Origin: Bacillus sp. (in: firmicutes)
GTDB taxonomy: Bacteria; Bacillota; Bacilli; Bacillales; Bacillaceae_J
NCBI GenBank assembly: GCA_012842745.1
Contig: DUSF01000056.1
Coordinates: 186,001-250,000, forward strand
Direction: 5' to 3'
DNA: 64,000 bases
Part shown: positions 1 through 13,215 of the stretch, piece by piece
How positions within the stretch are numbered: position 1 is the stretch's first letter
How the letters are laid out: every line of letters starts with the position of its first letter
Notes under the pieces: model-generated
The model's input: the letters and a program-made list of their open reading frames with translations, nothing else
The model's database searches: none
What the model was told of the DNA's origin: nothing
Program-made: the position numbers and the translations under genes

Positions 1-69
1 ACTTAAATGAATTAAGTATTAAACTAAAATGCGGAGAGAATAAAAACATCTGTGTTTTTAACAGCCATA

Positions 70-105
70 AAATAATAAAAAAGAGAAGACATTCGTCCTC
101 TCTTT
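70..105 (-). terminator. Terminator of the lipoprotein gene at 137-1078
   Basis: Read on the minus strand, an 11-bp stem with one mismatch (arms 95-105 and 80-90, loop of 4) is followed by a run of T. It lies about 30 bases beyond the stop codon of the minus-strand lipoprotein gene. Confidence 0.6.
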
Positions 106-136
106 CATCAGAGACAAGCTAATCGATTTGTGAAAT

Positions 137-1078
137 TTAACTTGGAAAATCAGTTAAATTTTTTCTAAATGTATCTACCTCGTCAGTTAATGTATCATTA
201 TTATTTGCCAAAACTTTAAGAAAGCTTTTCAGCATTTCTGTATAATCACTATCGATTCCTTTATTAATTGTATCTACATAAACAGCCTTTGCCTCAGGGT
301 CAATTTTTTTAGTATCATAACTAAACAACGGTGTATTATTCAGTCCAAAGAAAGTAAACATTTCATATCTTTTATAAAGATCGGTCATTTGATCCAGTCT
401 TTCAGAATTTTGATATTGCTTTAAAAATGCTTCTTGGGCTAGTGCTCTCTCGACAATTTCGTCCCAACTGATCATTAAGGCAGCATCCTTGGCCGGCACC
501 TGATTTGATTCAATGGACATGATTTCGATATAATCCTGTATTTCCTCAGTTGCTCTTGAACTGAATGTTTTATAAAACTGATAATCTATAATTGGGAAAT
601 AATACCCCTCTGCTGTTTCAATTTTATAACCGCTGTTTTTTGTCTCTTCAAGCAAAGTCTTTATCTCAGCATCAGCAATATTTTCTATTTTACTAGTATC
701 AGCAACACCTTCAAAAACATCCCTAAATTTTACTTGCAAGTCTTCACTGCTTGTAAATTTTTCTTCAAATGTTGGTAAATAATTAATTTGTAAATCTTCT
801 GATGCTAAAACCATATTAGAAACGTTTTGCGGTGATAAATTAGATACGTTGTCCTTCATAAATTGAAGAACTTCACTAATCTTTGGGGTGTTAGCAATTA
901 AAGTGTTAAAGTCACTCATCACTTGTTCTTCACTTGCTTGTGGCTTCTCTTCTGGTTGAACAACCTCCACTGGTTCACTGCTATTATTTTCATTTGTTTG
1001 ATTTCCTAAAGTACAACCTGCAGAAAAAATTAACACTGAAGCAAGCATTGATGCAGTCAATGTTTTTTTATTAAACAT
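137..1078 (-). CDS. Putative lipoprotein, function unknown (313 aa)
   Basis: The N terminus is a lipoprotein signal peptide: positive residues (NKK), a hydrophobic stretch and the lipobox FSAGC with the lipidated Cys at residue 22. The next 30 residues are a low-complexity N/S/E/P linker, as expected for a protein tethered outside the membrane. The rest is acidic and probably mostly helical, with no family I recognise. I chose the ATG at 1078 rather than an upstream in-frame TTG because AAAGGAG sits 8 bases before the ATG and the TTG lies just ahead of that site. It stands alone on the minus strand with its own terminator at 70-105. Lipoprotein call firm, function unknown. Confidence 0.75.
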   Translation of the reverse strand: MFNKKTLTASMLASVLIFSAGCTLGNQTNENNSSEPVEVVQPEEKPQASEEQVMSDFNTLIANTPKISEVLQFMKDNVSNLSPQNVSNMVLASEDLQINYLPTFEEKFTSSEDLQVKFRDVFEGVADTSKIENIADAEIKTLLEETKNSGYKIETAEGYYFPIIDYQFYKTFSSRATEEIQDYIEIMSIESNQVPAKDAALMISWDEIVERALAQEAFLKQYQNSERLDQMTDLYKRYEMFTFFGLNNTPLFSYDTKKIDPEAKAVYVDTINKGIDSDYTEMLKSFLKVLANNNDTLTDEVDTFRKNLTDFPS

Positions 1079-1227
1079 TTCATCATCTCCTTTCAATTGA
1101 TAAGACGTTCCTTCGACAAAAAAGTTACAAAAAATTTTTGGCTGCGATAATGTTGCGGAAGGAATAATTTTACTGGTCTAAAAGGAAAAATATATTAATG
1201 AGCTTGATGAAAAATGGGGGGATATTT

Positions 1228-1613
1228 TTGATTAATAATGTTGGTCAAATTATGTTATATGTAGATAATCAAGATGAGGCAGTGAGATTTTGGACTGAAA
1301 AAGTAGGGTTTTGTGTTATAACTGAATAAGATAATGGTCAAGGACTTAGATGGATTGAGATTTCTCCAACAAAGGAAGCTGAGACAAGTATTGTACTCCA
1401 TAATAAGGAATTCATTGCTAAAATGCAGCCTCAACTAAGCCTCAGTACGCCTTCTTTAATGTTTTTTCAGAAAACCTTGATCAATTACACAATGATTTAT
1501 CGAATAAAAACATTATAGTTGGAGAAATTGTCAATATGCCTTCTGGTAGAGTATTTAACTTTGCAGATATGGAAGGAAACTATTTTGCGGTGATGGAAAA
1601 AAGTAAATTGTAA
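1228..1613 (+). pseudogene. Broken VOC/glyoxalase-family gene
   Basis: Translation from the TTG at 1228 gives a typical VOC-fold start (MLYVDNQDEAVRFWTEKVGF), then an in-frame TAA at 1327-1329. Reading resumes in the same frame with the family-like WIEISP and SIVLHN segments. A one-base loss in the T run near 1463-1470 then shifts the frame; the remainder (SENLDQLHNDL, and RVFNFADMEGNYFAVME near the end) is found in another frame up to a TAA at 1611-1613. VOC proteins of this type are dioxygenase or glyoxalase-like and often act in antibiotic resistance. With one nonsense and one frameshift change the copy is almost certainly dead. Confidence 0.75.
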
Positions 1614-1658
1614 AAGAGTAATACGACAAATTAAAACCTAATTGAATAAACAATAAAC

Positions 1659-1697
1659 CGTCGTTTCGTACTTTTTTGTAAGAAACGATGTTTTTTT
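1659..1697 (+). terminator. Rho-independent terminator after the VOC pseudogene
   Basis: A 13-bp arm at 1659-1671 pairs with 1678-1690 (two non-canonical positions), with a six-base loop, followed by seven T. Confidence 0.7.
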
Positions 1698-1734
1698 CTG
1701 GGCACATTGCTTACGTTGGAAAGTGTTGCACAAA

Positions 1735-2076
1735 CTAGCTATTGGTCCCAACATTAGAATTGTAAGTTTGTAACATTTTTTTTCGCCTGATAAATAATAC
1801 AATGATTAAAATTGCTTCGCTTATAATCAACAAACCTACACCTAATAACAACCCTCCGAAAAACATAAATTCATTTATACGCCACGAAAAGAAAAACCAC
1901 CCCACTATTGCACAAATCCCCAATAAAAAGTTGAGTGTACTGGCAATAATCGTCTGTATACCGAATAACCCTGTTTTTTCAATCATTTTTGAACCAAAAA
2001 CATAACAAATAATCAAAGAAATTACTATAGAAGCAACATAAATGGCTAAAGCTATGTCACTGTTTTCTAACAGCAT
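1735..2076 (-). CDS. Small integral membrane protein, unknown (113 aa)
   Basis: The 113 residues contain three clear hydrophobic segments (about 9-29, 40-65 and 70-97), a charged RRKK after the last one, and a polar C-terminal tail. AAGGAG lies 9 bases before the ATG at 2076. I do not recognise a family. It could be a small multi-span protein of the kind common in Bacillus accessory regions. No partner gene is evident: the plus-strand neighbour on the left is a pseudogene and the gene on the right is divergent. It is a real gene by ribosome site and composition; function cannot be stated. Confidence 0.7.
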   Translation of the reverse strand: MLLENSDIALAIYVASIVISLIICYVFGSKMIEKTGLFGIQTIIASTLNFLLGICAIVGWFFFSWRINEFMFFGGLLLGVGLLIISEAILIIVLFIRRKKMLQTYNSNVGTNS

Positions 2077-2376
2077 AGTTTTTCACTCCTTAACTTTCAT
2101 TTATCACCAATTACAAGTTGTCTCGTTTAAAAAATACTAAATTCTGTTAATTAAAGCGTATCATAACTAGAATTGGATGAGAATAAGCAATTATCAATAA
2201 TCATTTTCTTAAATGGTACTTTTAAGAGAGAGAAACTGGGTCTTTATGGTAAAATGAATGATAGTTTCACCTAAAAGTGAAATGAATGTCAAATATCACT
2301 ATAAATTATCCTCCACTTAAATGTATAATAATACAAAACTATGAATAATTGCTTAGCTTGAAAGGGAGAGGATTGG
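2077..2376. other. 300-base intergenic stretch with palindrome and weak promoter
   Basis: This divergent spacer holds no gene. It contains a perfect 6-bp inverted repeat TTTCAC/GTGAAA with a six-base loop (2265-2282) and a TATAAT at 2324-2329 without a good -35 box, which may be the -10 of the transglutaminase-like gene. The palindrome is a possible operator, but nothing links it to a regulator. Confidence 0.35.
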
Positions 2377-2985
2377 ATGAATATGATTTGTGAGTCTGAA
2401 ACATTAGATGAATACTTACTCGAATTAAATGTAGCTGATTATTCTAATCCTATAATTAGAAAAAAAGTTGAGGAACTTTTTAATCCCTTCCAAACAGAAT
2501 TTGAAAAAGCAAGAGTAGCTAATGAGTTTGTCCGAGATGAAATATCTCATTCTTGGGATATTCAAGGAAAACGAGTCACTTGCAATGCATCAGACGTATT
2601 AGCCTATAAAGAGGGTATATGTTATGCAAAATCACATTTATTAGCGTCTTTATTACGTTCACAAGGAATTCCAACCGGTTTTTGTTATCAACGCTTAATG
2701 TTGTTTGATACGCCAGAAAAAGGATATTGTATTCACGCTTTGAATGCTGTCTTCTTTAAATCACTTAATAAATGGGTAAGGTTAGATGCTCGTGGAAATA
2801 AAAAGGGAATTGATGCCCAATTTTCGGTTGATGAAGAAAAATTAGCTTTTCCCATTCAAGAGGAATTCGGTGAAAAGGACTACCCCGTTATTTATGTAAA
2901 ACCACATCCAAAAACGATAGATGTATTAAAGGAGCATACTGATGTATTAGAATTGTATAAAAGTCATTTACCAGATAGTTTATAA
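2377..2985 (+). CDS. Transglutaminase-like cysteine protein (202 aa)
   Basis: The sequence carries the three signatures of the transglutaminase/protease-like superfamily in order: Cys82 in EGICYAKSHLLASLLRSQGI, His120 in YCIHALNAVFF, and Asp137 in WVRLDARGN. These form the expected Cys-His-Asp triad. The N-terminal 75 residues are helical and contain the usual region before the catalytic Cys (ANEFVRDEISHS). Bacterial members act as peptidases, amidases or crosslinkers; the substrate here is unknown. No signal peptide is seen, so it is probably cytoplasmic. The start is an ATG preceded by GGGAGAGG. It looks monocistronic, and family membership is clear. Confidence 0.85.
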   Translation: MNMICESETLDEYLLELNVADYSNPIIRKKVEELFNPFQTEFEKARVANEFVRDEISHSWDIQGKRVTCNASDVLAYKEGICYAKSHLLASLLRSQGIPTGFCYQRLMLFDTPEKGYCIHALNAVFFKSLNKWVRLDARGNKKGIDAQFSVDEEKLAFPIQEEFGEKDYPVIYVKPHPKTIDVLKEHTDVLELYKSHLPDSL

Positions 2986-3299
2986 TTATTTATCTAACGG
3001 GGCAAGAGTTGAAGGTTTGGCTGCTAATGGCATCTTATTAAAATAACTGTTATCAGACTTACGTAGGAAGTTTCGTTGAAGAGGATTGTTGTTTTTATTA
3101 AAGTAAGAAGCGTATTCAACTTAAAATAACGAATACGCTTGTTCTCCCTCTCGTGAGGCGAATCATTACATTGATTCCCTTTTGCGTGATTATACGAGGT
3201 GTATCACAGAATTAAGCAATTATTTGTTCTCAAAGTATCCCGCAACTGTATCTAAATAATATTTGCTCTCAAAATTTTTATGTCTTTTTAAAGCAGACT
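2986..3299. other. 314-base intergenic stretch with a perfect hairpin
   Basis: No gene is seen. A perfect 10-bp inverted repeat, AAGCGTATTC and its complement (3108-3117 and 3131-3140, loop 13), sits between two converging genes. It has no T run on the plus strand and only a poor one on the minus strand, so it may be a weak bidirectional terminator. Confidence 0.35.
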
Positions 3300-3863
3300 T
3301 TAAGGATACCACGAAAGTTTGGTATCACCGTTTAGTGGTTGGGTTTTAATTTCTGTACTTAAGGTATTGAACCATTTACTTAAAATTTCATCCTTTGCTA
3401 GATTTGCATTGTCATCATCTTCCCAAATTACATGAGAAAACCAAGCTCCAGTTGCCCATTGAAATTGTAGCTCAGCATAGGCAATCTTAGGGTGTTCAAT
3501 TTGAGTAAAATTCCCATTTACTGCAGAAGCAACAGTAGATGCTTGGGGTAGTAATTCGTTTTGAATCTTATCTTTTATGATAGGATTCTCAAGTTGGTTC
3601 CACATAACAAGCAAGCCATCTACTTGATAAAAAATGTCGAAAGAAGGTCGTTCACCCATATTGATTAAAACAAAGGCACGTTCTACTGTGTTGTTAGTCG
3701 CCTTAACCGCATTCACGATAATATTCTGTGCAATTTCCACCCAAAAATTCATTGCTTCTTCTTCTGGAGACTCTATATAAAACTCAGATTCTAGTTCAGA
3801 AACATCAGCCTCTCCTTTATTAACTTTTTCTATCTTCTTAAAAAAGCGATTAAAGAACCCCAT
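3300..3863 (-). CDS. Hypothetical protein of unknown function (187 aa)
   Basis: The protein starts with a basic amphipathic segment (GFFNRFFKKIEKVNKG), followed by an acidic linker and a globular domain rich in aromatic residues (FDIFYQVDGLLVMWNQL, FQWATGAWFSHVIWEDDD). It has no signal peptide, membrane span or motif that I recognise. Size and composition would fit a polymorphic-toxin immunity protein, but no toxin gene is adjacent and I do not assert it. The ATG at 3863 is preferred; a GTG nine bases upstream lies too close to the GAGG site. A functional call cannot be made. Confidence 0.6.
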   Translation of the reverse strand: MGFFNRFFKKIEKVNKGEADVSELESEFYIESPEEEAMNFWVEIAQNIIVNAVKATNNTVERAFVLINMGERPSFDIFYQVDGLLVMWNQLENPIIKDKIQNELLPQASTVASAVNGNFTQIEHPKIAYAELQFQWATGAWFSHVIWEDDDNANLAKDEILSKWFNTLSTEIKTQPLNGDTKLSWYP

Positions 3864-4092
3864 TACATGCACATCCTCAAGTTCTATTTAATAAAAAGGA
3901 ATACAATTTGATTTAGATGTTCATTAGCAATACACCTCAATATAGATTATTATTCTGCAAATTTTACCAAAAGCCTTGTTAGGCTATTAGTATATTTGAT
4001 AAAAGACAGGATTGATAAACACAAAATTAGTAATTAATGGTATTATTTTACGAGAGGGTATTAAATTGAGTAACAAAAAGGGAGAGGGAACG

Positions 4093-4806
4093 ATGGGTAA
4101 AAAAGTTTATTTTCTATTAACTGAAACAGGCACACTTTTGTCTGAAACCATCAAATTATATACAAAGGCCAAGTATAATCACGTATCACTTGGATTGGAT
4201 TATGAGCTACGGCAACTATATAGTTTTGGCCGTAAAAATCCCATTAATCCGTTAGACGGAGGTTTTGTTCATGAGGATTTTGAACGCGGCACTTATAGTT
4301 GGCATCCACATACTACAGGTGCCTTATATGAATTAGCAGTATCAGAAGAAGTGTATAAAAACATGGAACAGGTCATTACTGAATTTCAAATACACAAGGA
4401 TAAGTATTTGTATAATTTCATTGGACTTTTCGGGGTTTGTTTAAATAGACCGTTAGAAATAGATTCAGCTTATTTTTGTTCTCAATTTGTCTCGGAAGTT
4501 CTAAACAGAAGTGGATTATCACTTTTTGATAAACCTAGTGCATTGGTAACTCCAGAAGATTTTTATAAAATAAAGCAAACGACTCTTGTCTATGAAGGGA
4601 GAATCTATGAATATGAACCGATAAAACAAAGATTAATAAGAAATCCATATGAATATCATTCTTTTCCATTCCGTAAGTACATGTGGCAACAAATAAATAT
4701 TGAAGGAAAAAACGAAGAACGCCCCTTATCTTTTAGGGATGGCTATTTAAAACCAAAAAAAGTATTTGTTGATACAAATTTAAAAAAGCTGAAGAAAAGA
4801 AAATAG
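4093..4806 (+). CDS. YiiX-like papain-fold cysteine hydrolase (237 aa)
   Basis: Two segments characterise the permuted NlpC/P60-papain (YiiX/YebB-like) fold: YNHVSLGLD, with probable catalytic His30, and AYFCSQFVSEVL, with probable nucleophile Cys129. In this circularly permuted group the His precedes the Cys, as here. Members act on acyl, amide or peptide bonds of lipids or cell wall; the substrate is unknown. No signal peptide is evident. The ATG at 4093 has a good site (GGGAGAGGGAA); an in-frame start 81 bases upstream lacks one. A partial second copy of its 5' end lies at 5536-5613, so the region once held a paralogue. The C-terminal tail is very basic. Confidence 0.75.
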   Translation: MGKKVYFLLTETGTLLSETIKLYTKAKYNHVSLGLDYELRQLYSFGRKNPINPLDGGFVHEDFERGTYSWHPHTTGALYELAVSEEVYKNMEQVITEFQIHKDKYLYNFIGLFGVCLNRPLEIDSAYFCSQFVSEVLNRSGLSLFDKPSALVTPEDFYKIKQTTLVYEGRIYEYEPIKQRLIRNPYEYHSFPFRKYMWQQINIEGKNEERPLSFRDGYLKPKKVFVDTNLKKLKKRK

Positions 4807-4859
4807 GTCAGGCACCGCCCGAATTAAAGGAGAAGATGCTCTTTTGTTTTTAAATGATG

Positions 4860-4885
4860 CTCCAGAAAGTATCTGGGGATTTTTT
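4860..4885 (+). terminator. Terminator downstream of the YiiX-like gene
   Basis: A 7-bp stem with G-U pairs (4860-4866 with 4872-4878, loop AAGTA) is followed by ATTTTTT. Confidence 0.6.
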
Positions 4886-4920
4886 GTGTAACGAAGGAAA
4901 TTTTTAAAAGACTAGTTAAA

Positions 4921-5016
4921 ATGGGAACATTGGATGAATTTATTAATGCTGGTTACTTCAAAAATATTGTCAAAATGGAAAATATTATAAATGATGATTA
5001 TGTATGTCCGATATAA
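4921..5016 (+). pseudogene. Possible 3' remnant of an unidentified gene
   Basis: An open frame encodes MGTLDEFINAGYFKN and on to DDYVCPI before a stop at 5014-5016. It has protein-like composition but no ribosome site, and the frame extends upstream into a terminator hairpin. It looks like the C-terminal scrap of a deleted gene. I cannot name the family. Confidence 0.3.
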
Positions 5017-5051
5017 GCTATAGGAACTACTATTTTAAAGAGGTGAAGAAT

Positions 5052-5528
5052 TTGAGAATACAAGCGGTTGGAAATGCTGCAACAAATCCAATTACGGCTA
5101 CTCAAAGAAGTGAAGCTAGCTTTGAAGACGTATTAATGAATACACAAGTGACAAAAAAGGATAATCCAGAAAATACCATAACAAATATTTATGAGAATCT
5201 ATCCAATAAATATGATGTTCGAAAGGCAACATTTGAAGAAATAAAAGAGATTTCTCATTCGCTATATGAAGCGGGTGAAATTTCTTTGAAGGAAGTTGCA
5301 ATTCTTACATTTGATTATGAAAGAGCAACGAATGATATCAAAAATCAGGTTGGAAGTGTATCACCTAATTTCAGCTTATATGAAACAGAAGCTAACAAAA
5401 ATGGGCAAAGAGATTGGATTGCAGAATACGAAGCAAGAGCAGCAAAATTCTTTCAGTCTGGCGATTTAGTTGGTTATCAAAATAGTACGAAAATATTAAA
5501 TATTTTAAGAGAGATACAAAAAAGGTGA
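5052..5528 (+). CDS. Hypothetical protein (158 aa)
   Basis: I place the start at the TTG at 5052 because GAGGTG lies 7 bases upstream; an in-frame ATG at 5004 has no site. The protein has a Ser/Thr/Ala-rich N terminus (RIQAVGNAATNPITATQRSE) and then a helical, acidic body ending in a basic C terminus. It has no signal peptide, membrane span or recognisable motif. The N-terminal style resembles small Bacillus proteins related to flagella or secretion, but that is impression only. It is followed closely by a fragment of the YiiX-like gene and then the DUF3160 operon. Confidence 0.55.
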   Translation: MRIQAVGNAATNPITATQRSEASFEDVLMNTQVTKKDNPENTITNIYENLSNKYDVRKATFEEIKEISHSLYEAGEISLKEVAILTFDYERATNDIKNQVGSVSPNFSLYETEANKNGQRDWIAEYEARAAKFFQSGDLVGYQNSTKILNILREIQKR

Positions 5529-5535
5529 AGAGTGA

Positions 5536-5613
5536 GTCATTACACATTTTGATGAAACAGGCACACTTTTGTCCGAAATTATCAAAATTGATTATAAAAG
5601 GAGGCAATTGTAA
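5536..5613 (+). pseudogene. 5' fragment of a second YiiX-like gene (duplication scar)
   Basis: Twenty-one bases at 5553-5573 are identical to 4122-4142, near the start of the YiiX-like gene, apart from limited divergence after the match. Translation gives DETGTLLSEIIK against TETGTLLSETIK of the intact gene. The copy then runs into unrelated sequence and stops at 5611-5613, inside the ribosome-site region of the next gene. It is the scar of a duplicated and deleted paralogue. Confidence 0.6.
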
Positions 5614-7772
5614 TGTCATGGAAAGAAAAATTTTCAGTAGGAATGATTAGCCTTGTTCTTCTTGTGCCCGTTGCAACTGCAGGGTGCAGTGTGAATTCCA
5701 ATCAAATAGGACAGAAGCGTACTGGGGAAAAGATTCATATGCCGGTATCTATGGCTACGGATTTTGCAAATTACAAAGAGGTGCCTGTGAGTTCAACAGC
5801 GACCGTTAAGCCTTATGTAATAGAGCCGGATTTAAGTAACGTAACGAATACAGAGATGTTTCAGTTTTCCAATGAGGCGGAACGTATGTTGATAGAAAAT
5901 GGCTTTGTCGTTATTCCAAGTCAATATCGGGAATTTTTTATGCTTTATGAAGTCAACCGCTATCAACCAGTACCCAATTTCATTACAACCGACTCCATGC
6001 TTCATAACTATCATTTATACTTTAATCATTTACTGCGCGTGGTAGAAAAGGACAAGCTAGCACCGTTGTTAAATGAGCTTACGGCAGCCATGCTTTCTGA
6101 ATCTGAAAAACAGTATAAAGCCCTTAAAGGAACAGATTGGGAGAATGCTGCTAAAAGGAACATCGGTTTTTTCACCGTAGCTAGTAAACTTTTAAATCCT
6201 GAAATTCCTGTTTCAGGAATAGTAAAGGTGGAAGTGGAAGAAGAACTGCGACTTATTGAAAACAGAGGAGGAATTCAGGACTCTCCTTTAATGAATATGG
6301 GGCAAAATGTGAAAGGAACAGAAATCCTCCGAGAGGATTATTCGCAGTACATCCCGCGTGGTCACTATGATAAAGATGAACTTTTACAGTCGTATTTCAA
6401 GGCGATGATGTGGTATGGAAGAATGACTTTTAGACTTCAAAGCGACGATGAAACGAAGTCCGCAATCTTACTGACGTTGGCTCTTAGTAGTGGAGACAAC
6501 GGACAAAAGTGGGATCAAATATACCAGCCGACAAACTTTTTTGTAGGAAAAGCCGACGATTTGTCCTTTTTAGAGTACATTGTCCTTTTGGAGAAAATAT
6601 ACGGGGCCGATGTGGGGCTTGAGGATTTAACAGCCGATGACGGAAAATTGCTTTCTTTTAAGGAAGCTGCTTCAAAGATGGAGCCGGCACTTATCAATTC
6701 AATTCCAATTTTTGATGAAGATATCCAACCTGACCGTGCAAAAGCAATCAATGGTTTTCGCTTTATGGGGCAGCGTTTTACACTTGATGCGGCTATTTTT
6801 CAACGGTTGATTTACCGTGATGTAAAAGAAAATAGTGAGGGTCAGAGAAGATTGCTTCCAAAGGTACTTGATATCCCTGCTGCAATGGGATCTAAGGAAG
6901 CTCATACCATTTTAGAAGACGAAGGGCAAACGAGGTATGACGGTTATCAAAAAAATATGAGCAAACTACAAGAATATATTGCCAATCAGGGTAAAGAAAT
7001 ATGGACCCAAAACCTTTACTGGGGTTGGCTTTATACTTTGAATTCTCTGCTTGATGAAAAAGGTGAAGGTTATCCATCATTTATGCAAAACCGAAATTGG
7101 CAGAGAAAAGACTTGAATACGTTTGTATCTAGTTGGACCGAGCTTAAGCATGATACGCTTCTATATACGAAACAGGTTTACGCTGAAATGGGTGGAGGAG
7201 GAGAAGATGTGGATGACCGCGGTTATGTCGAGCCTAACCCAGTTCTCTTTGCGCGTCTGGCTGCATTGGTAGACATGACACGGGAGGGGCTAGCTTCGCG
7301 GAATCTTTTGGATGAAAGAGACCGTGAAAGTCTCGACCGCATGGAGCAATTGGCTCTTTCCTTAAAAACTATTGCAGAAAAAGAACTTTCCAATACCCCA
7401 CTTTCGGATGAGGAGTATGATTTAATCCGTTCCTATGGAGGGCAATTGGAGCATTTCTGGCTTGAGGCATTGCGGGATGTTGGTGTAGACCACCCTTCTT
7501 TAATAGGTGAAAACCCTGCAGCCTTAGTGGCTGATGTGGCCACTGATCCAAATGGACAAGTACTGCAAGAGGCTACAGGCCATATTTTTGAAATTTATGC
7601 TGTCGTTCCTGTTGACGGTCGTTTGAGAATCGCTAGTGGTGGTGTTTATTCCCATTATGAGTTTCCATGGCCACTTGCTGATCGGTTGACGGATAAAAAA
7701 TGGCATGAAATGCTAGACACTGGTGAGGTTCCACCACTATCTGGTTGGACTAAAAACTATATAGCCCAATGA
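5613..7772 (+). CDS. DUF3160-domain lipoprotein (719 aa)
   Basis: A signal peptide with lipobox ATAGC (lipid-anchored Cys25) is followed by a long soluble body typical of DUF3160: the early segment VPNFITTDSMLHNYHLYFNH and a late EIYAVVPVDGRLRIASGG stretch ending near YEFPWPLADRLTD. The family is predicted to be extracytoplasmic and its biochemical role is unknown. Length is normal for the family. The ATG follows AGGAGGCAATTGTA. The next gene overlaps by ATGA (7769-7772) and the one after by ATGA again, so three lipoproteins are translationally coupled and probably work at the same place outside the membrane. Confidence 0.85.
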   Translation: MSWKEKFSVGMISLVLLVPVATAGCSVNSNQIGQKRTGEKIHMPVSMATDFANYKEVPVSSTATVKPYVIEPDLSNVTNTEMFQFSNEAERMLIENGFVVIPSQYREFFMLYEVNRYQPVPNFITTDSMLHNYHLYFNHLLRVVEKDKLAPLLNELTAAMLSESEKQYKALKGTDWENAAKRNIGFFTVASKLLNPEIPVSGIVKVEVEEELRLIENRGGIQDSPLMNMGQNVKGTEILREDYSQYIPRGHYDKDELLQSYFKAMMWYGRMTFRLQSDDETKSAILLTLALSSGDNGQKWDQIYQPTNFFVGKADDLSFLEYIVLLEKIYGADVGLEDLTADDGKLLSFKEAASKMEPALINSIPIFDEDIQPDRAKAINGFRFMGQRFTLDAAIFQRLIYRDVKENSEGQRRLLPKVLDIPAAMGSKEAHTILEDEGQTRYDGYQKNMSKLQEYIANQGKEIWTQNLYWGWLYTLNSLLDEKGEGYPSFMQNRNWQRKDLNTFVSSWTELKHDTLLYTKQVYAEMGGGGEDVDDRGYVEPNPVLFARLAALVDMTREGLASRNLLDERDRESLDRMEQLALSLKTIAEKELSNTPLSDEEYDLIRSYGGQLEHFWLEALRDVGVDHPSLIGENPAALVADVATDPNGQVLQEATGHIFEIYAVVPVDGRLRIASGGVYSHYEFPWPLADRLTDKKWHEMLDTGEVPPLSGWTKNYIAQ

Positions 7773-8521
7773 GAGTAGCTTTATTGATATTTAGCGCTTT
7801 GTTGATGATAGGAATGCTATTTGGTTGCGGTTTTACTACTCAACAGAAGGATAGAAATAACAGCGCTTTTCATGATATTTCATCTTTTAGAGAAAGTCGT
7901 ATGAAGTTGCCAGAAAAAAGAGAGTCAAATTGTTTTGCGATAAGGGAAGATATAAAGCCGTTATCGAACAAGGGCTTCGCATCAGAAATGTTTCAAGATC
8001 AAAAGTTGCTACCGGCATACAGACTGGTGAAAACCGAGTATTTCGACTTGGATGGAAATGGAATCAAGGAAGAATTTGCATTGCGTGATGGTAAGATAAC
8101 GGTCAAAGCGGACTCTCGGCTAATCTGGCAGTCACCGAAAAATTGGTGGGTCGACTATTTTTTTCTTGGAGATACGAACAATGATGGTATTTCCGAGCTT
8201 AACCTTTTAGTTTGGAAAGAAGGGAGCTTTGGCTCCCAAAAGCCCTTTTGGATAGAGGAAGAGGATACGGAGGTTAAAAATCACTTCTTTATTTTCAAAC
8301 TAGAACAAGGTGATATGAAACCGGTCTGGCAATCTTCCAACCTTGATTTCCCTAATTACTGTGCTGACAATATTAACTTCAATAGTGATGGTGAAACTGA
8401 GTTACTAACGGTAGAGGGTAGTTATACAGACCCCTACAAGCGGGAAGTTACTTTATGGAAGTGGGATGGTTGGGGATTTTCTAGGAGTGACTTTGAGGCT
8501 GGGGGAGCGGAGATAAAATGA
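7769..8521 (+). CDS. Lipoprotein with FG-GAP/EF-hand-like calcium repeats (250 aa)
   Basis: The signal peptide ends in the lipobox MLFGC (Cys20). The mature protein has two D-x-D/N-x-D/N-G repeats, DLDGNGIKEE near residue 93 and DTNNDGISEL near residue 135, and a third degenerate NFNSDGETEL. These match the calcium loops of FG-GAP/VCBS beta-propeller blades. Such proteins are extracellular and usually structural or ligand-binding. Start and stop overlap the neighbours by ATGA on both sides, with no strong ribosome site of its own, so translation is coupled to the DUF3160 gene. Its operon position suggests a shared envelope function that I cannot define. Confidence 0.75.
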   Translation: MRVALLIFSALLMIGMLFGCGFTTQQKDRNNSAFHDISSFRESRMKLPEKRESNCFAIREDIKPLSNKGFASEMFQDQKLLPAYRLVKTEYFDLDGNGIKEEFALRDGKITVKADSRLIWQSPKNWWVDYFFLGDTNNDGISELNLLVWKEGSFGSQKPFWIEEEDTEVKNHFFIFKLEQGDMKPVWQSSNLDFPNYCADNINFNSDGETELLTVEGSYTDPYKREVTLWKWDGWGFSRSDFEAGGAEIK

Positions 8522-9045
8522 AAAAAATTCTATTAATTTTGTTAACTATGCTTTTAGTAATTGTGGTTACTGCATGCAATGATACAACTACGCAAAAAGA
8601 AGTGAATAATATAAGAAATGATAATGAAATTGCTGTTGATACGGAAGGAACAGTTGATCATAGTAACTATGACAAAATAAGTGCCTATATGGAAGAAGAA
8701 TGCAAAAACGTCTTTTCTCCATATTATGAGTTATTAGCTTTTGAAATATCAGATTATCAGGAAGAAGTTGTGAATGGAAACGTTGAAGCGACCTTCTTCT
8801 ATAAATTAATACACAAAAATTATGATAAAGACCCGGATACAGTGGGATATATTAAAGAAGCGAAGGAAAGTGGTAATGTCAACTATCAACAAATGTACGA
8901 TGAATACTTACAACCGAAAGAAATGAATTTCGAGTTAAAAGCCATGATAGATGAAAATGATGGAATCACGCTGTATTCTAATGTTTCTCCAAAAGGAATC
9001 GAATGGGAAGAAACAAAAATGTCTGATTTTATCATTAGTAAATAA
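8518..9045 (+). CDS. Putative lipoprotein (175 aa)
   Basis: A short, very hydrophobic signal ends in the lipobox VVTAC with lipid-anchored Cys20. The mature part is acidic, has no repeats and no family I recognise. It is the third lipoprotein of the operon, starting within the stop codon of the preceding gene (ATGA); GGAG lies just upstream of the ATG. A small membrane protein follows 26 bases later. Function unknown; co-expression with the DUF3160 protein is the main clue. Confidence 0.7.
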   Translation: MKKILLILLTMLLVIVVTACNDTTTQKEVNNIRNDNEIAVDTEGTVDHSNYDKISAYMEEECKNVFSPYYELLAFEISDYQEEVVNGNVEATFFYKLIHKNYDKDPDTVGYIKEAKESGNVNYQQMYDEYLQPKEMNFELKAMIDENDGITLYSNVSPKGIEWEETKMSDFIISK

Positions 9046-9071
9046 TTAATTAAAATCATTGGAGGTAAAAT

Positions 9072-9257
9072 ATGTTATCAAATATTGGTGCAGGTGGTTT
9101 CATTCTGTTTGTTAATATTATTCTTTTAATTGTTGGTCTATTTATTCTATACTTCGTCATTTCAACAGCAGTCAAGGTTGGTATTAACAAGTCTGTGGTT
9201 GGTCAATATATCGAAAAGAAGTATGGGGTTAATGAGGATAAAGAAATTAATTCTTGA
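9072..9257 (+). CDS. Small single-span membrane protein (61 aa)
   Basis: The ATG is preceded by GGAGGTAAAAT. Residues about 9-35 form one transmembrane helix, followed by a short basic and then acidic cytoplasmic tail. It is probably the last gene of the lipoprotein operon, since a terminator follows at 9324-9350. I do not recognise a family. Confidence 0.6.
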   Translation: MLSNIGAGGFILFVNIILLIVGLFILYFVISTAVKVGINKSVVGQYIEKKYGVNEDKEINS

Positions 9258-9323
9258 TAGTGATTTGAATGGTGACAGGTAAAATGGCTTATTGTACAAA
9301 CAGTGGTTATTGCATAATAGCGG

Positions 9324-9350
9324 AGATCGTCAAAACGGCGGTCTTTTTTG
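9324..9350 (+). terminator. Terminator of the lipoprotein operon
   Basis: Arms AGATCGTC (9324-9331) and GGCGGTCT (9337-9344) pair with G-U wobbles over a loop of five, and a T run follows. Confidence 0.6.
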
Positions 9351-9453
9351 TTTAAGAGTAGTAATGTTGAATAAGTACTCAACAGTGCTTAGTGTAGCGG
9401 TGTCATCTATGGTAAAATATAGAACAGAAATCGTTGGAAAAGGCGTGAGTTAA

Positions 9454-10110
9454 ATGAATGATAAATATAATTTGTCGAAGCATGAAAATATGTTTTTAGC
9501 TAAAAAAACATTAATAGCTAACATATATTACACCGCAAAAATTGAAGGAGTCAATATTACTTTTCCGCAAACAAAAACAATTTTAGAAGGTGTTTCTGTT
9601 AGCAACTTGGATATGGATGATGTGCAAAAAATTTTAAATCTTAGAAATGCTTGGAAATATACATTAAACAATATAGAGAAACCATTTGATTTAGACTTTG
9701 CAAAAAAATTAAATGAATTTGTTGCGTATAACGAAAGTATTGAATGGGGTGTTCTCCGAACGGGGAATGTAGGAATTTCAGGAGTAGAATACCAACCTGC
9801 GATTCCAGTAGAAAGTGAAGTAAAACTTGAAATGGAGCAAATTTTAAGTATTCCTTGTGTAACAGAACGAGCATTGACTTATATGCTGTGGGCGATGAGA
9901 AAACAATTGTTTTGGGACGGAAATAAACGTACAAGTATTATTTCAGCCAATAAAATTCTGATTGAAAATGGCAAAGGTATAGTAAGTGTCGAAGAAAAAA
10001 ATTTAGGTGAATTTAATGAAAGGTTGTCAAAGTTTTACGAAACGAATGATTATAATCACATCATTTACTTTTTATATGACAAATGTATTTTCGGTATTGA
10101 TTATAGCTAG
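9454..10110 (+). CDS. Fic-family protein with altered active-site motif (218 aa)
   Basis: Fic proteins usually transfer AMP to target proteins using the motif HxFx(D/E)GN(G/K)R. Here the motif region, residues 151-160, reads QLFWDGNKRT: everything after the first position is kept, but the catalytic His is Gln. The N terminus has TAKIEG (residues 27-32), which fits the (S/T)xxxE(G/N) inhibitory helix of class II Fic proteins. The protein may be an inactive or re-purposed Fic fold, or use different chemistry. The ATG has no strong ribosome site. No antitoxin partner is adjacent. Family assignment good, activity doubtful. Confidence 0.75.
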   Translation: MNDKYNLSKHENMFLAKKTLIANIYYTAKIEGVNITFPQTKTILEGVSVSNLDMDDVQKILNLRNAWKYTLNNIEKPFDLDFAKKLNEFVAYNESIEWGVLRTGNVGISGVEYQPAIPVESEVKLEMEQILSIPCVTERALTYMLWAMRKQLFWDGNKRTSIISANKILIENGKGIVSVEEKNLGEFNERLSKFYETNDYNHIIYFLYDKCIFGIDYS

Positions 10111-10184
10111 ATTTTTGGAAACTTCACATATTTAGTGGAAACCTCAATTTTTTCATTAGGAAAATATTTAAAGGAGTGTCATGA

Positions 10185-10643
10185 ATGATACTTGTAAGTT
10201 CCTGTTTGGCAGGATTGAAAGTAAGATATAACGGTGCCCATTGTTTAGATAAGACGGTTAGCGAATTAGTTAAAGCGAACAAAGCCGTTACAGTCTGCCC
10301 TGAAGTGCTTGGCGGGCTTACCACTCCAAGAGAACCTGCAGAAATAGTTGGTGGAGACGGCAATGATGTTTTGAATGGAAAGGCAAAAGTAATTACCAAA
10401 ACTGGGGAAGATGTAACGGACTGTTTCCTAAAAGGGGCTTATACTGTCTTACAAAAAGCGAAAGAAATAAAGGCAACCATTGTTGTACTTAAGGAAAATA
10501 GCCCATCCTGCGGCAGTTCAATGATATATAATGGTGAATTTTCCGGTAAGAAAATTGCAGGGAATGGCGTTGCGGCTGCTTTACTTAAAAGAAATGGAAT
10601 ACAAGTTATTTCAGAACAAGAATTTGCCGAAAATAGCTATTAG
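10185..10643 (+). CDS. DUF523-family protein (152 aa)
   Basis: This is a compact single-domain protein with the DUF523 signatures: the N-terminal ILVSSCLAGLKVRYNG, the central TVCPEVLGGLTTPREPAEI and the C-terminal LKENSPSCGSSMIYNG. The conserved Cys residues in each (Cys7, the Cys of VCPE and the Cys of SPSCG) suggest metal or sulfur chemistry, but no activity is established for the family to my knowledge. Length is normal. AAAGGAG precedes the start. It stands between the Fic-like gene and the toxin-antitoxin pair without clear operon links. Confidence 0.85.
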   Translation: MILVSSCLAGLKVRYNGAHCLDKTVSELVKANKAVTVCPEVLGGLTTPREPAEIVGGDGNDVLNGKAKVITKTGEDVTDCFLKGAYTVLQKAKEIKATIVVLKENSPSCGSSMIYNGEFSGKKIAGNGVAAALLKRNGIQVISEQEFAENSY

Positions 10644-10727
10644 AACTGTCCGTACTATATTCAGGGGTGGGATTATTTTGTTAATTGTATATAGTGGTTA
10701 TAAAATAAACAAGTAGTAGTAATCTTT

Positions 10728-10859
10728 ATGTTTGTTATTATTATAGGTTTTATTATTTTTCAATATTCATTAAGCATCCAAAATTTTACCCATTCGGTTA
10801 AGAGTAGAGCTGATATACAGAGATTGAATGCAATGATTGATTATTATAATAGCCTATAA
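10728..10859 (+). CDS. Possible small membrane peptide (43 aa)
   Basis: An open frame encodes a hydrophobic N-terminal segment (MFVIIIGFIIFQYSLSI) followed by a polar, basic tail. There is no ribosome site and the frame is open slightly upstream of the ATG, so it may be the end of a lost gene rather than a functional peptide. Confidence 0.25.
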   Translation: MFVIIIGFIIFQYSLSIQNFTHSVKSRADIQRLNAMIDYYNSL

Positions 10860-10916
10860 TTCAGTGTTAAAGTGAATTTTAAAATGATAAAATATTTTAA
10901 AAGGAGTGTGTTCACT

Positions 10917-11210
10917 ATGGAGATGGAATCTTTCCAAGTAAATTTGCCAAAAGAATTTTTACCTCTAATTAAAGCATTAGATGGCCCGAATCTTGATGCA
11001 AAAGTTAAATTATCTTTAGCGCTTGGTTTATTTGTTAATAAGCAGGTGACGCTTGCTAGAGCAGCCGAACTTTCTGGAAAATCATTAGGAGAATTTATTG
11101 ATTTTTTGCGTTCTAAAAACATTCCTTGGATAGAGTATAATGAAACAGATTTAAAAGATGATGAGAAAGCAATAGAGGATTTGCTAGGTGATTTGGATGT
11201 TGAAGAATAA
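10917..11210 (+). CDS. UPF0175-family antitoxin (97 aa)
   Basis: The sequence has the UPF0175 pattern: an N-terminal strand (FQVNLPKEF), a central helix pair typical of these small antitoxins (KLSLALGLFVNKQVTLARAA then ELSGKSLGEFIDFLRSKNI) and an acidic tail. UPF0175 proteins are DNA-binding antitoxins paired with DUF3368 PIN-domain proteins, which is what follows. The ATG at 10917 has AAAGGAG 9 bases upstream. Its 3' end overlaps the toxin gene by 14 bases, so the two are translated together. Autoregulation is expected from the family. Confidence 0.8.
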   Translation: MEMESFQVNLPKEFLPLIKALDGPNLDAKVKLSLALGLFVNKQVTLARAAELSGKSLGEFIDFLRSKNIPWIEYNETDLKDDEKAIEDLLGDLDVEE

Positions 11211-11703
11211 AATTATTACGAATTCAACTCCTATTATAGGTTTGTCTATTTTGGGAAAGTTACATCTTCTAGCTGATTTGTTTGAAGAAATTTATGTACC
11301 TAAAGCTGTTTTCGAAGAAATTATTGACAGTTATTCATCGCGACAGTACGGTAGAGACGAATTAGCAAGAATGGTTAGAGAAGGAACATTTCAATTATAC
11401 GATGTCCAGAACAGTGGCTTAGTGAAGAAATTATATGGTAAGCTCCATGAAGGTGAATTAGAAGTGATTGTAGGAGCTAAGGAACTTGATTTAAAATTCG
11501 TTGCCATAGATGAGCATGCTGCAAGAACACTTTCCAAAACATTTCTTTTACAACCAATAGGCACTATTGGAATTTTAATTCTTGCTAAGAAAGTAGGTTT
11601 AATTGAAGAGGTTAAGCCTTTACTTGATAAATTGCTAAAACATGATTTTTATATGTCAAAGAAATTATATCGCCAAGCTTTGAATCATGCTGGTGAAAGG
11701 TAA
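11197..11703 (+). CDS. DUF3368 PIN-like toxin (168 aa)
   Basis: The N-terminal IITNSTPIIGLSILGKLHLL matches the DUF3368 opening (usually SNTSPLI plus L and G positions). A central HEGELEVIVGAKEL and a C-terminal FVAIDEHAARTLSKTF supply the acidic positions of the PIN nuclease centre, and GTIGILILAKKVGLI is the typical following segment. PIN toxins cleave RNA; the first acidic residue is Asn/Ser in this subfamily, so activity is not certain. The ATG at 11197 lies 8 bases after AGGTGA inside the antitoxin gene. It forms a type II toxin-antitoxin pair with the preceding gene. Confidence 0.8.
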   Translation: MLKNKIITNSTPIIGLSILGKLHLLADLFEEIYVPKAVFEEIIDSYSSRQYGRDELARMVREGTFQLYDVQNSGLVKKLYGKLHEGELEVIVGAKELDLKFVAIDEHAARTLSKTFLLQPIGTIGILILAKKVGLIEEVKPLLDKLLKHDFYMSKKLYRQALNHAGER

Positions 11704-11836
11704 GGAAAAATATAGACAAGTGTCAGAATTTAACGGTTATGCAACACACCAATCCAATCTAAGCGACATCATTCTAGCATATTGGACAATCAATCCCGAA
11801 TACATCTAAACAAATAGATGAAGGGAGTGGTTGCTT

Positions 11837-12007
11837 ATGGGAAAACAACTAAATAATCAACTAAATAATAATGAAAAAGTTGGTAAAGAGAAGAGCACTG
11901 TGCAAGGAAAAACAGAAATAAAGATTATTGTTGAGGTTGCGAATGAGTTGGATACAAAAAAGGCTGTTCAAGAATATTATAAAGTGGTAAAAAGTGAACG
12001 TTTGTAA
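11837..12007 (+). CDS. Small hypothetical protein (56 aa)
   Basis: GAAGGGAGTGG precedes the ATG, and a terminator follows the stop by 6 bases, so this is a self-contained small gene. The product is very polar: an Asn-rich start, then a predicted strand (TEIKIIVEVAN) and an amphipathic helix with basic residues at the end. I do not recognise it. Confidence 0.55.
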   Translation: MGKQLNNQLNNNEKVGKEKSTVQGKTEIKIIVEVANELDTKKAVQEYYKVVKSERL

Positions 12008-12012
12008 ACGAA

Positions 12013-12040
12013 GGGGCAGGCATATGCCTCTTTTTTCTTT
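12013..12040 (+). terminator. Terminator of the 56-codon gene
   Basis: GGGGCA (12013-12018) pairs with TGCCTC (12025-12030) with one G-U pair over a loop of six, followed by TTTTTTCTTT. Confidence 0.65.
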
Positions 12041-12133
12041 TGACATACATAGTTAATATAACAGTAGTGATTAGAGTGGAATATTTTGATAAAATAAATG
12101 TAACAATTTTTTGTTTAAAGGAGGGGATATCCA

Positions 12134-12391
12134 ATGCTATGGGAAGATGTTAGACAAGCTTATCCTAATAAGTGGGTTGTATTCGAAGCGATAGAAGCTC
12201 ATTCTGACAATAATTTTCGTATCGTTGATGATATTGCTGTTGTTGACACTTTTGATGATTCTATGGATGCGTTTAGAAGACATGCGGAGTTACACAAGCA
12301 AAAACCACAACGAGAGTTTTACTTTTTTCATACATCACGCGAAAACTTAGATATTCATGAAAAGAAATGGGCAGGGTTGAGAATGATATGA
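12134..12391 (+). CDS. Hypothetical partner of the retropepsin-like protease (85 aa)
   Basis: An 85-residue acidic protein with aromatic clusters (WVVFEAIEAHSDNNFRIVDD, REFYFFHTSRENLDI). No motif is recognised. GGAGGGGATATCC lies before the ATG. The stop codon overlaps the ATG of the aspartyl-protease gene (ATGA at 12388-12391), so the two are translationally coupled and may form a complex or a substrate-enzyme pair. Confidence 0.65.
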   Translation: MLWEDVRQAYPNKWVVFEAIEAHSDNNFRIVDDIAVVDTFDDSMDAFRRHAELHKQKPQREFYFFHTSRENLDIHEKKWAGLRMI

Positions 12392-12771
12392 TAAAGATAA
12401 ACGAAAAAGTTGGTCTTCCTTTTATCGAAGCATCTGTAACATTTCGAGGTAAAAGTATTAGATTAGAAAATGTTCTTATTGATACCGGATCCGCTGGTAC
12501 TATATGTAATGTTAATCGACTAGAAGAAATTGGAGTTAAACCAGAATCTAATGATGTAACACACACGATTCAAGGTATTGGCGGTCTTGAGTTCGTTTAT
12601 ACGAAACAGATTGACCAAATTGCTATTTCAGATAAGATTGCTATTAGTAATTTTGATGTTGAACTAGGATCGATGGATTATGGAGTAGAAATCGATGGAA
12701 TTATTGGTTATGATTTTATGAAGGAACTTGGTTTAACGATTGATCTAAAAAAATTAAAATTAAGTATTTAA
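12388..12771 (+). CDS. Retropepsin-like aspartyl protease (127 aa)
   Basis: The catalytic motif LIDTGSAGT (Asp32) and the downstream hydrophobic-hydrophobic-Gly motif GIIGYDFM are the two hallmarks of a single-domain retropepsin/clan AA protease, which would act as a homodimer. No signal peptide is present, so it is cytoplasmic. The ATG at 12388 overlaps the stop of the preceding 85-codon gene, which supports this start over an in-frame one 21 bases upstream. A terminator follows directly. Substrate unknown; the coupled upstream protein is the obvious candidate to test. Confidence 0.8.
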   Translation: MIKINEKVGLPFIEASVTFRGKSIRLENVLIDTGSAGTICNVNRLEEIGVKPESNDVTHTIQGIGGLEFVYTKQIDQIAISDKIAISNFDVELGSMDYGVEIDGIIGYDFMKELGLTIDLKKLKLSI

Positions 12772-12775
12772 TATG

Positions 12776-12798
12776 AGTGGCTTGTGCCGCTTTTTTTA
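12776..12798 (+). terminator. Terminator of the protease pair
   Basis: AGTGGC (12776-12781) pairs with GCCGCT (12786-12791) over TTGT, followed by a T run. Confidence 0.65.
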
Positions 12799-12870
12799 TG
12801 TGGTCATAGTAGTAAACTATTTAAGCTATAAATAGGTTAACCCCAATGGTACCCTTCATCAACAACACAC

Positions 12871-13215
12871 GATTGTATGGTGATTGCACCATTAACCGGA
12901 AATTCCATGAGCAAATTTGCGAATGCCTTAACTGACAGCCCTGTATTAATGGCTGCAAAAGCAACATTAAGAAATCTAAATCCTGTAGTCCTTGGCATTT
13001 CAACTAACGATGCCTTAGGATTAAATGGCATGAATTTAATGAAGCTAATGGCAACAAAAAATATCTATTTTATTCCTTTTGGCCAAGATGACCCATTAAG
13101 AAAGCCAAATTCGATTGTGGCGAGAATGGATGCTTTATTAGAGACGGTGGAAGCAGCGCTAAACGGGCGGCAATTCCAACCAGTATTAATTGAAAGATAT
13201 CGAGATGGAGAATAA
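12871..13215 (+). CDS. dpaB: 3' part of dpaB (spoVFB), dipicolinate synthase subunit B, 5' end missing
   Basis: From DCMVIAPLTGNSMSK onward this matches the C-terminal 60 percent of dipicolinate synthase subunit B, the flavoprotein-like partner of DpaA that makes spore dipicolinate in the mother cell. About 86 N-terminal residues of a protein near 200 are absent. Reading the same frame upstream gives a non-homologous stretch and then a stop at 12838-12840. There is no ribosome site, so it cannot be translated alone, yet the remaining 114 codons are intact to a normal stop. dpaA is not upstream. The left part was displaced by the accessory DNA before it. See the findings for the split-gene hypothesis. 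Confidence 0.85.
   Translation, partial: DCMVIAPLTGNSMSKFANALTDSPVLMAAKATLRNLNPVVLGISTNDALGLNGMNLMKLMATKNIYFIPFGQDDPLRKPNSIVARMDALLETVEAALNGRQFQPVLIERYRDGE

Follow-up and report, generated by a model that had tools for sequence, protein, structure and literature searches.

An element with its own large serine recombinase splits dpaB (spoVFB) at codon 86 and is very probably a new sporulation-gene-intervening element

A dpaB gene in two halves

The window analysed here is a stretch of 64,000 nucleotides from a Bacillus sp., positions 186001-250000 of contig C56 (window position 1 is C56:186001) in a 3.50-Mb genome of 71 contigs that we call G000. It contains the 3′ part of dpaB (spoVFB), the gene for dipicolinate synthase subunit B. 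An earlier note on this DNA had recognised about 60% of the gene in a clean frame, and our measurement agrees: 345 of the 600 nt (57%) are present, with the frame open to the normal stop at 13215, and the gene is followed by asd and then by dapG- and dapA-type genes in the usual order. The 3′ half starts with a GA core at 12871, and position 12838 falls in the adjoining att arm. The 5′ half and dpaA, which that note had reported missing from the window, were located by a whole-genome family search on the same 390-kb contig, where dpaA and the dpaB 5′ half (C56:176443-177597) lie 8.4-9.6 kb upstream of the window, the 5′ half itself at 8.4-8.7 kb. The recombinase that the note had looked for in vain within the window, and had proposed seeking upstream, is found just outside it, at C56:177660-179183, as a large serine recombinase (LSR). 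The features of the locus are as follows.

C56:176443-177342, + strand: dpaA, intact, directly before the dpaB 5′ half
C56:177343-177597, + strand: dpaB 5′ half, codons 1-85
C56:177598-177599: left GA core, after the dpaB 5′ half
C56:177598-198870: dpaB-intervening element, 21,273 bp, of which window 1-12870 is the right 60%
C56:177602-177630: candidate sigma-E-type promoter, GCATAGT-N14-ACATAAAAT, located 36 bp upstream of the start of the LSR gene, within the left att arm
C56:177666-179183 (or from 177660), + strand: LSR gene, 505 aa (or 507 aa)
Window 5613-7772, + strand: cargo, DUF3160 protein (Pfam 1e-234, 2-632 of 632)
Window 9454-10110, + strand: cargo, Fic-domain protein (Pfam)
Window 10185-10643, + strand: cargo, 2-thiouracil desulfurase family protein (Pfam 3e-47)
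Window 10872-11703, + strand: cargo, overlapping UPF0175 and DUF3368 (PIN-like) genes (Pfam)
Window 12367-12771, + strand: cargo, retropepsin-like aspartyl protease (Pfam), the last gene before attR
Window 12846-12897, + strand: attR, comprising the element right arm, the GA core (12871-12872) and the dpaB 3′ arm
Window 12871-13215, + strand: dpaB 3′ half, codons 86-199 plus stop

No second dpaB was found in G000: Flavoprotein family matches in the genome were confined to the two dpaB halves and one full-length 406-aa protein, which is probably CoaBC, and a separate search with the rejoined protein returned the halves only. Two of the outcomes that the earlier note had named as refuting its proposal, a genome without the dpaB 5′ half and a second, intact dpaB, were thus not borne out. 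The single copy of sigK in this genome is intact.

The two ends of the element share a single sequence that restores the frame, the dinucleotide GA, at C56:177598 and C56:198871 (window 12871), in line with the earlier proposal of a short shared repeat near 12860-12885 that would rejoin dpaB in frame. Joining at GA takes out 21,273 bp and leaves a 199-codon dpaB without internal stop, whose product is 86-88% identical to the intact DpaB of three congeneric species and of one sister genus. These three sister species, all that were sampled, carry an intact dpaB, and the predicted empty site, CCTTTAGATTGTATGG, is found exactly in two of them. GA makes up positions 1 and 2 of the Asp86 codon and is present in 29 of the 30 homologues read; LSRs typically use a core of 2 bp. 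A longer direct repeat at the ends was considered and rejected, as the longest frame-consistent match is GA and the 6-mer CATAGT is a chance match elsewhere. Neither a rejoined dpaB nor an excised circle is present in the G000 assembly, which is expected of vegetative DNA and equally of a dead insertion.

The element has a GC content of 34.8% against 38.7% in its flanks and encodes a single LSR with an intact frame, which adjoins the left end (68 bp from the left core; the 507-aa open reading frame lies 32 nt after the dpaB 5′ half). The likely start is the second ATG, at C56:177666, judging from its position 7 nt after GAGAGGTG. The protein has the N-terminal catalytic serine motif, IYLRKSR, and three domains above the Pfam cut-off (Resolvase, 1e-23; Recombinase, 2e-22; Zn_ribbon_recom, 2e-9). 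Further cargo identified by Pfam includes a chemotaxis receptor, a copper-amine-oxidase-N domain protein, a TipAS/MerR regulator, a DUF7010 protein, a transglutaminase-core protein and a protein of PF12118, named SprA-related in Pfam and distinct from the SPbeta recombinase. The UPF0175/DUF3368 pair is a probable toxin-antitoxin system and may stabilise the element. The earlier description of several neighbouring accessory genes as broken found no support among the genes tested: the DUF3160, 2-thiouracil desulfurase, TipAS/MerR, DUF7010 and Fic proteins cover the full or almost the full length of their Pfam models. Of the same note's suggestion that this junction could be the right end of a prophage-like element similar to skin or vfbin, the gene halves, the LSR and the core are as predicted, but the prophage-like character is not: among ten cargo proteins run against PHROGs we found no phage structural, packaging or lysis families, so that, within the cargo tested, the element resembles gin and not a prophage.

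A second element at the same codon and other split genes

Two separate dpaB matches were found in 11 of 399 genomes of the order surveyed, namely G000, a genome that we call G107, and nine genomes of genus g25. G107 is a single-contig chromosome from another family than G000, in which an element of 10,991 bp (L087, G107:C1) interrupts dpaB, again at the Asp86 codon. The core shared by its two ends, GATTG, contains GA, and dpaB rejoins over it without stop. The LSR of this element occupies the same location as that of G000 and is 64.6% identical to it over 505 aa, and the two form one clade with full support in our LSR tree. The att arms are also related, with 20 of 30 bases matching at the right end (0 of 20,000 random pairs were as good) and 17 of 30 at the left end (P 0.001), and in each element the attP arms show an imperfect inverted symmetry (12/25, P 0.02). 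Apart from the LSR no protein is common to the two elements; the right end of the G107 element retains a 41-bp, 83% identical remnant of the 3′ end of the G000 aspartyl-protease gene. The remaining G107 cargo differs wholly and consists of a TGL transglutaminase, assigned by Pfam (4e-107), and, as judged from sequence, an MFS transporter, a PurC-like protein, GNAT and SDR proteins and a large membrane protein. TGL is the family to which the spore-coat cross-linking enzyme belongs.

Excision by LSRs normally needs a directionality factor. When open reading frames of at least 25 aa were compared between the two elements, matches were confined to the LSR and to frames antisense to it, and no shared directionality factor was found. 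An 85-aa open reading frame near attR was rejected as a candidate, because 13 of 61 genomes carry it as a scattered accessory gene and the G107 element lacks it. A profile built from the two LSRs detected no third member among 400 genomes of the class or in the entire family to which G107 belongs, and no close relatives of the LSR were found in named genome contigs, IMG/VR or plasmids. Other groups in the LSR tree include phi3T-type recombinases by a split kamA and recombinases by truncated manganese-catalase genes. At L057 (G002:C48) and L062 (G010:C1), serine recombinases lie beside a manganese-catalase gene that is truncated and may be a further split gene, and phi3T-type recombinases adjoin a truncated kamA at L059, L060 and L063 (G003, G049 and G010), comparable to the kamA insertions described previously (PMC6957869).

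In genus g25, dpaB is split around codon 141 in nine of the 11 species sampled (L056, L088-L096; G027, G103, G182, G231, G253, G296, G316, G337 and G357) and intact in two, and the recombinase system at this site is unrelated to the one at codon 86. In all eight fully contiguous loci analysed, joining the halves over a core of 7-10 bp gives a DpaB of 199 aa. Seven of these elements measure 2.8-3.0 kb and one 9.2 kb; their LSR is encoded on the opposite strand, and they also carry a 178-186-aa open reading frame and, in seven of eight, a 61-65-aa open reading frame that is a candidate directionality factor. Across species the median dN/dS is 0.085 for the LSR, and values of 0.014 and 0.049 were obtained for the dpaB halves, which indicates purifying selection. 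A further system is represented by a prophage-like IMG/VR contig (UViG_2576861273; L100, 40.6 kb), which has codons 1 to ~110 of dpaB at its end. Next to them come a SprA-like LSR 39.8% identical to the SPBc2 integrase YokA and, as judged from sequence, phage terminase- and portal-like genes. The systems at codons 86, ~110 and ~141 thus indicate that dpaB has been struck at three codons by three LSR lineages.

G000 itself carries another interrupted gene. An insert of 26,300 bp interrupts its prkA (C27:7385-35580; L105, L106). This insert encodes a serine recombinase (LSR) of 483 aa and has ATGCATGAAGAT as its 12-bp core, and the rejoined PrkA comprises 631 aa without stop. PrkA has been tied to sporulation through sigma-K (PMC4415436), and our literature search found no report of a prkA-intervening element.

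Relation to known elements, a proposed mechanism and competing explanations

Intervening elements are known in sigK, spoVFB (vfbin), spoVR, gerE (gin), spsM, kamA and yabG (PMC4191935, PMC5595907, PMC6957869, PMC10747680). At the sequence level the G000 element shares with this class a split mother-cell gene, a recombinase by one end and a core that restores the frame, and no directionality factor was found. Its closest parallel in character is gin of Bacillus cereus ATCC10987, likewise a non-prophage element with accessory cargo and LSR-type excision restoring a mother-cell gene (PMC5595907); however, gin targets gerE and has a 9-bp core, three recombinases and the directionality factor (RDF) GirX, whereas the element described here targets dpaB and has a 2-bp core, one LSR and no RDF found. 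Like SpoIVCA of skin, the LSR is encoded directly after the 5′ part of the split gene and reads in the same direction (PMC10747680), but skin is prophage-like and lies in sigK, and the sigma-E promoter of spoIVCA is located more than 200 bp upstream (PMC6957869), in contrast to the candidate promoter inside the att arm of G000. The phi3T integrase (kamA) and SPbeta SprA (spsM) are phage LSRs that also split mother-cell genes, and phi3T-type recombinases are the best phage matches to the G000 LSR, at ~32% identity. These phages, active or defective, have other targets, and the G000 LSR falls in a distinct clade of the tree. In terms of target the nearest case is vfbin of Bacillus weihenstephanensis KBAB4, which interrupts the same gene (spoVFB is dpaB) and is excised in sporulation by a sporulation-expressed recombinase (PMC4191935, PMC5595907).

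The dpaA and LSR promoters considered here are consensus matches only. Upstream of dpaA, the pattern TCAC..N..CATA is common to all eleven genomes aligned and fits the sigma-K consensus; G000 has retained this promoter match, as ACC-N-CATATGATG at C56:176354, with spacing as described previously (PMC517825). The sigma-E-type match before the LSR gene recurs at the same offset in G107, a comparison that is confounded by the conservation of the att arm, and such scores arise at a background rate of 0.25 per kb per strand. This conserved match weakens the idea that read-through from dpaA is the only route of LSR expression, and we keep read-through as an alternative. Expression of the recombinase has been reported to be sporulation-specific for B. 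subtilis skin, vfbin and gin (PMC5595907).

We therefore favour, with considerable confidence, a new sporulation-gene-intervening element that is not a prophage, carries its own LSR, lies at dpaB codon 86 and would be excised in the mother cell, for which gin, vfbin, SPbeta, phi3T and yin provide precedents (PMC5595907, PMC4191935, PMC6957869, PMC10747680). The element would have been inserted by its own LSR into the Asp86 codon, and dpaB would stay split during vegetative growth and on the chromosome of the spore. During sporulation the mother cell would express the LSR from the att-arm promoter of sigma-E type, from the sigma-K-type promoter ahead of dpaA by read-through, or from both, and either route would confine the enzyme to this compartment. 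The LSR, presumably with a directionality factor, would then recombine attL and attR at the GA dinucleotide, freeing a 21.3-kb circle and restoring dpaA-dpaB, which would allow DPA to be made. Because the mother cell is discarded, the element would be passed on intact through the spore.

Alternatively, the element may be an ordinary island or a recent insertion that uses dpaB as its attB and is not excised on a sporulation cue, in which case the organism would form weak, DPA-less spores or would not sporulate. The failure to find an RDF and the restriction of shared proteins to the LSR in the comparison with G107 would suit such an island. The intact dpaB of the three sister species also fits, as the insertion can be recent, perhaps too recent for constraint on the gene halves to mean much. 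The dN/dS of the G000 halves against relatives, 0.02-0.13, is similar to that of intact pairs, but dS is saturated and the ratio cannot date the insertion, so that we regard this constraint as a weak sign, taken alone, of a living gene. Against an island stand the intact LSR, the use of the same codon by a diverged LSR in another family, and the codon-141 elements, which keep both dpaB halves and the LSR under purifying selection, unlike a dead gene, and which, by analogy, may offer stronger support that a split dpaB stays functional. On this evidence we consider a recent or dead island unlikely.

It is much less probable still that the element is vfbin or a degraded form of it. The gene is the same (PMC4191935, PMC10747680), but vfbin has been described with phage-related genes (PMC4191935), a description that sets it apart from the G000 element, in whose tested cargo none was matched. 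A search for vfbin in ten genomes of a genus that we guess to be the B. cereus group gave an intact dpaB in all of them. An assembly chimera joining unrelated sequence to a dpaB fragment might be suspected in a draft genome of this many contigs, but it would have to account for both halves lying in normal gene order on one 390-kb contig, for a break at the LSR core beside the LSR gene, and for the same arrangement in the single-contig genome G107; we find it barely credible.

Recurrent recombination at dpaB

If the intervening-element reading is correct, the few sporulation-specific gene rearrangements known so far would be joined by a family of non-phage elements whose LSRs form a clade of their own. 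The same codon has been struck in two genera by elements with entirely different cargo, which suggests that the recombinase and its att pair are constant and that the cargo is exchangeable. Asp86 would represent a conserved 'safe' integration site for which the LSR and both att sequences are defined, and could be used as a test system. The systems at codons 86, 110 and 141 also provide a comparison set for how such elements arise, lose cargo and join the spore programme permanently. More broadly, and here we lean only slightly towards acceptance, dpaB may be a general switch point for recombination in the Bacillales, split independently at codons 86, ~110 and ~141 by LSR systems that are unrelated and number at least three. 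One of these would have shrunk to a 2.8-kb excision cassette that holds, besides the recombinase, a candidate directionality factor and a further gene, and would have been kept for the life of the genus, such that the rearrangement has become a fixed, element-controlled step that gates DPA synthesis, and prkA of G000 may be under the same kind of control.
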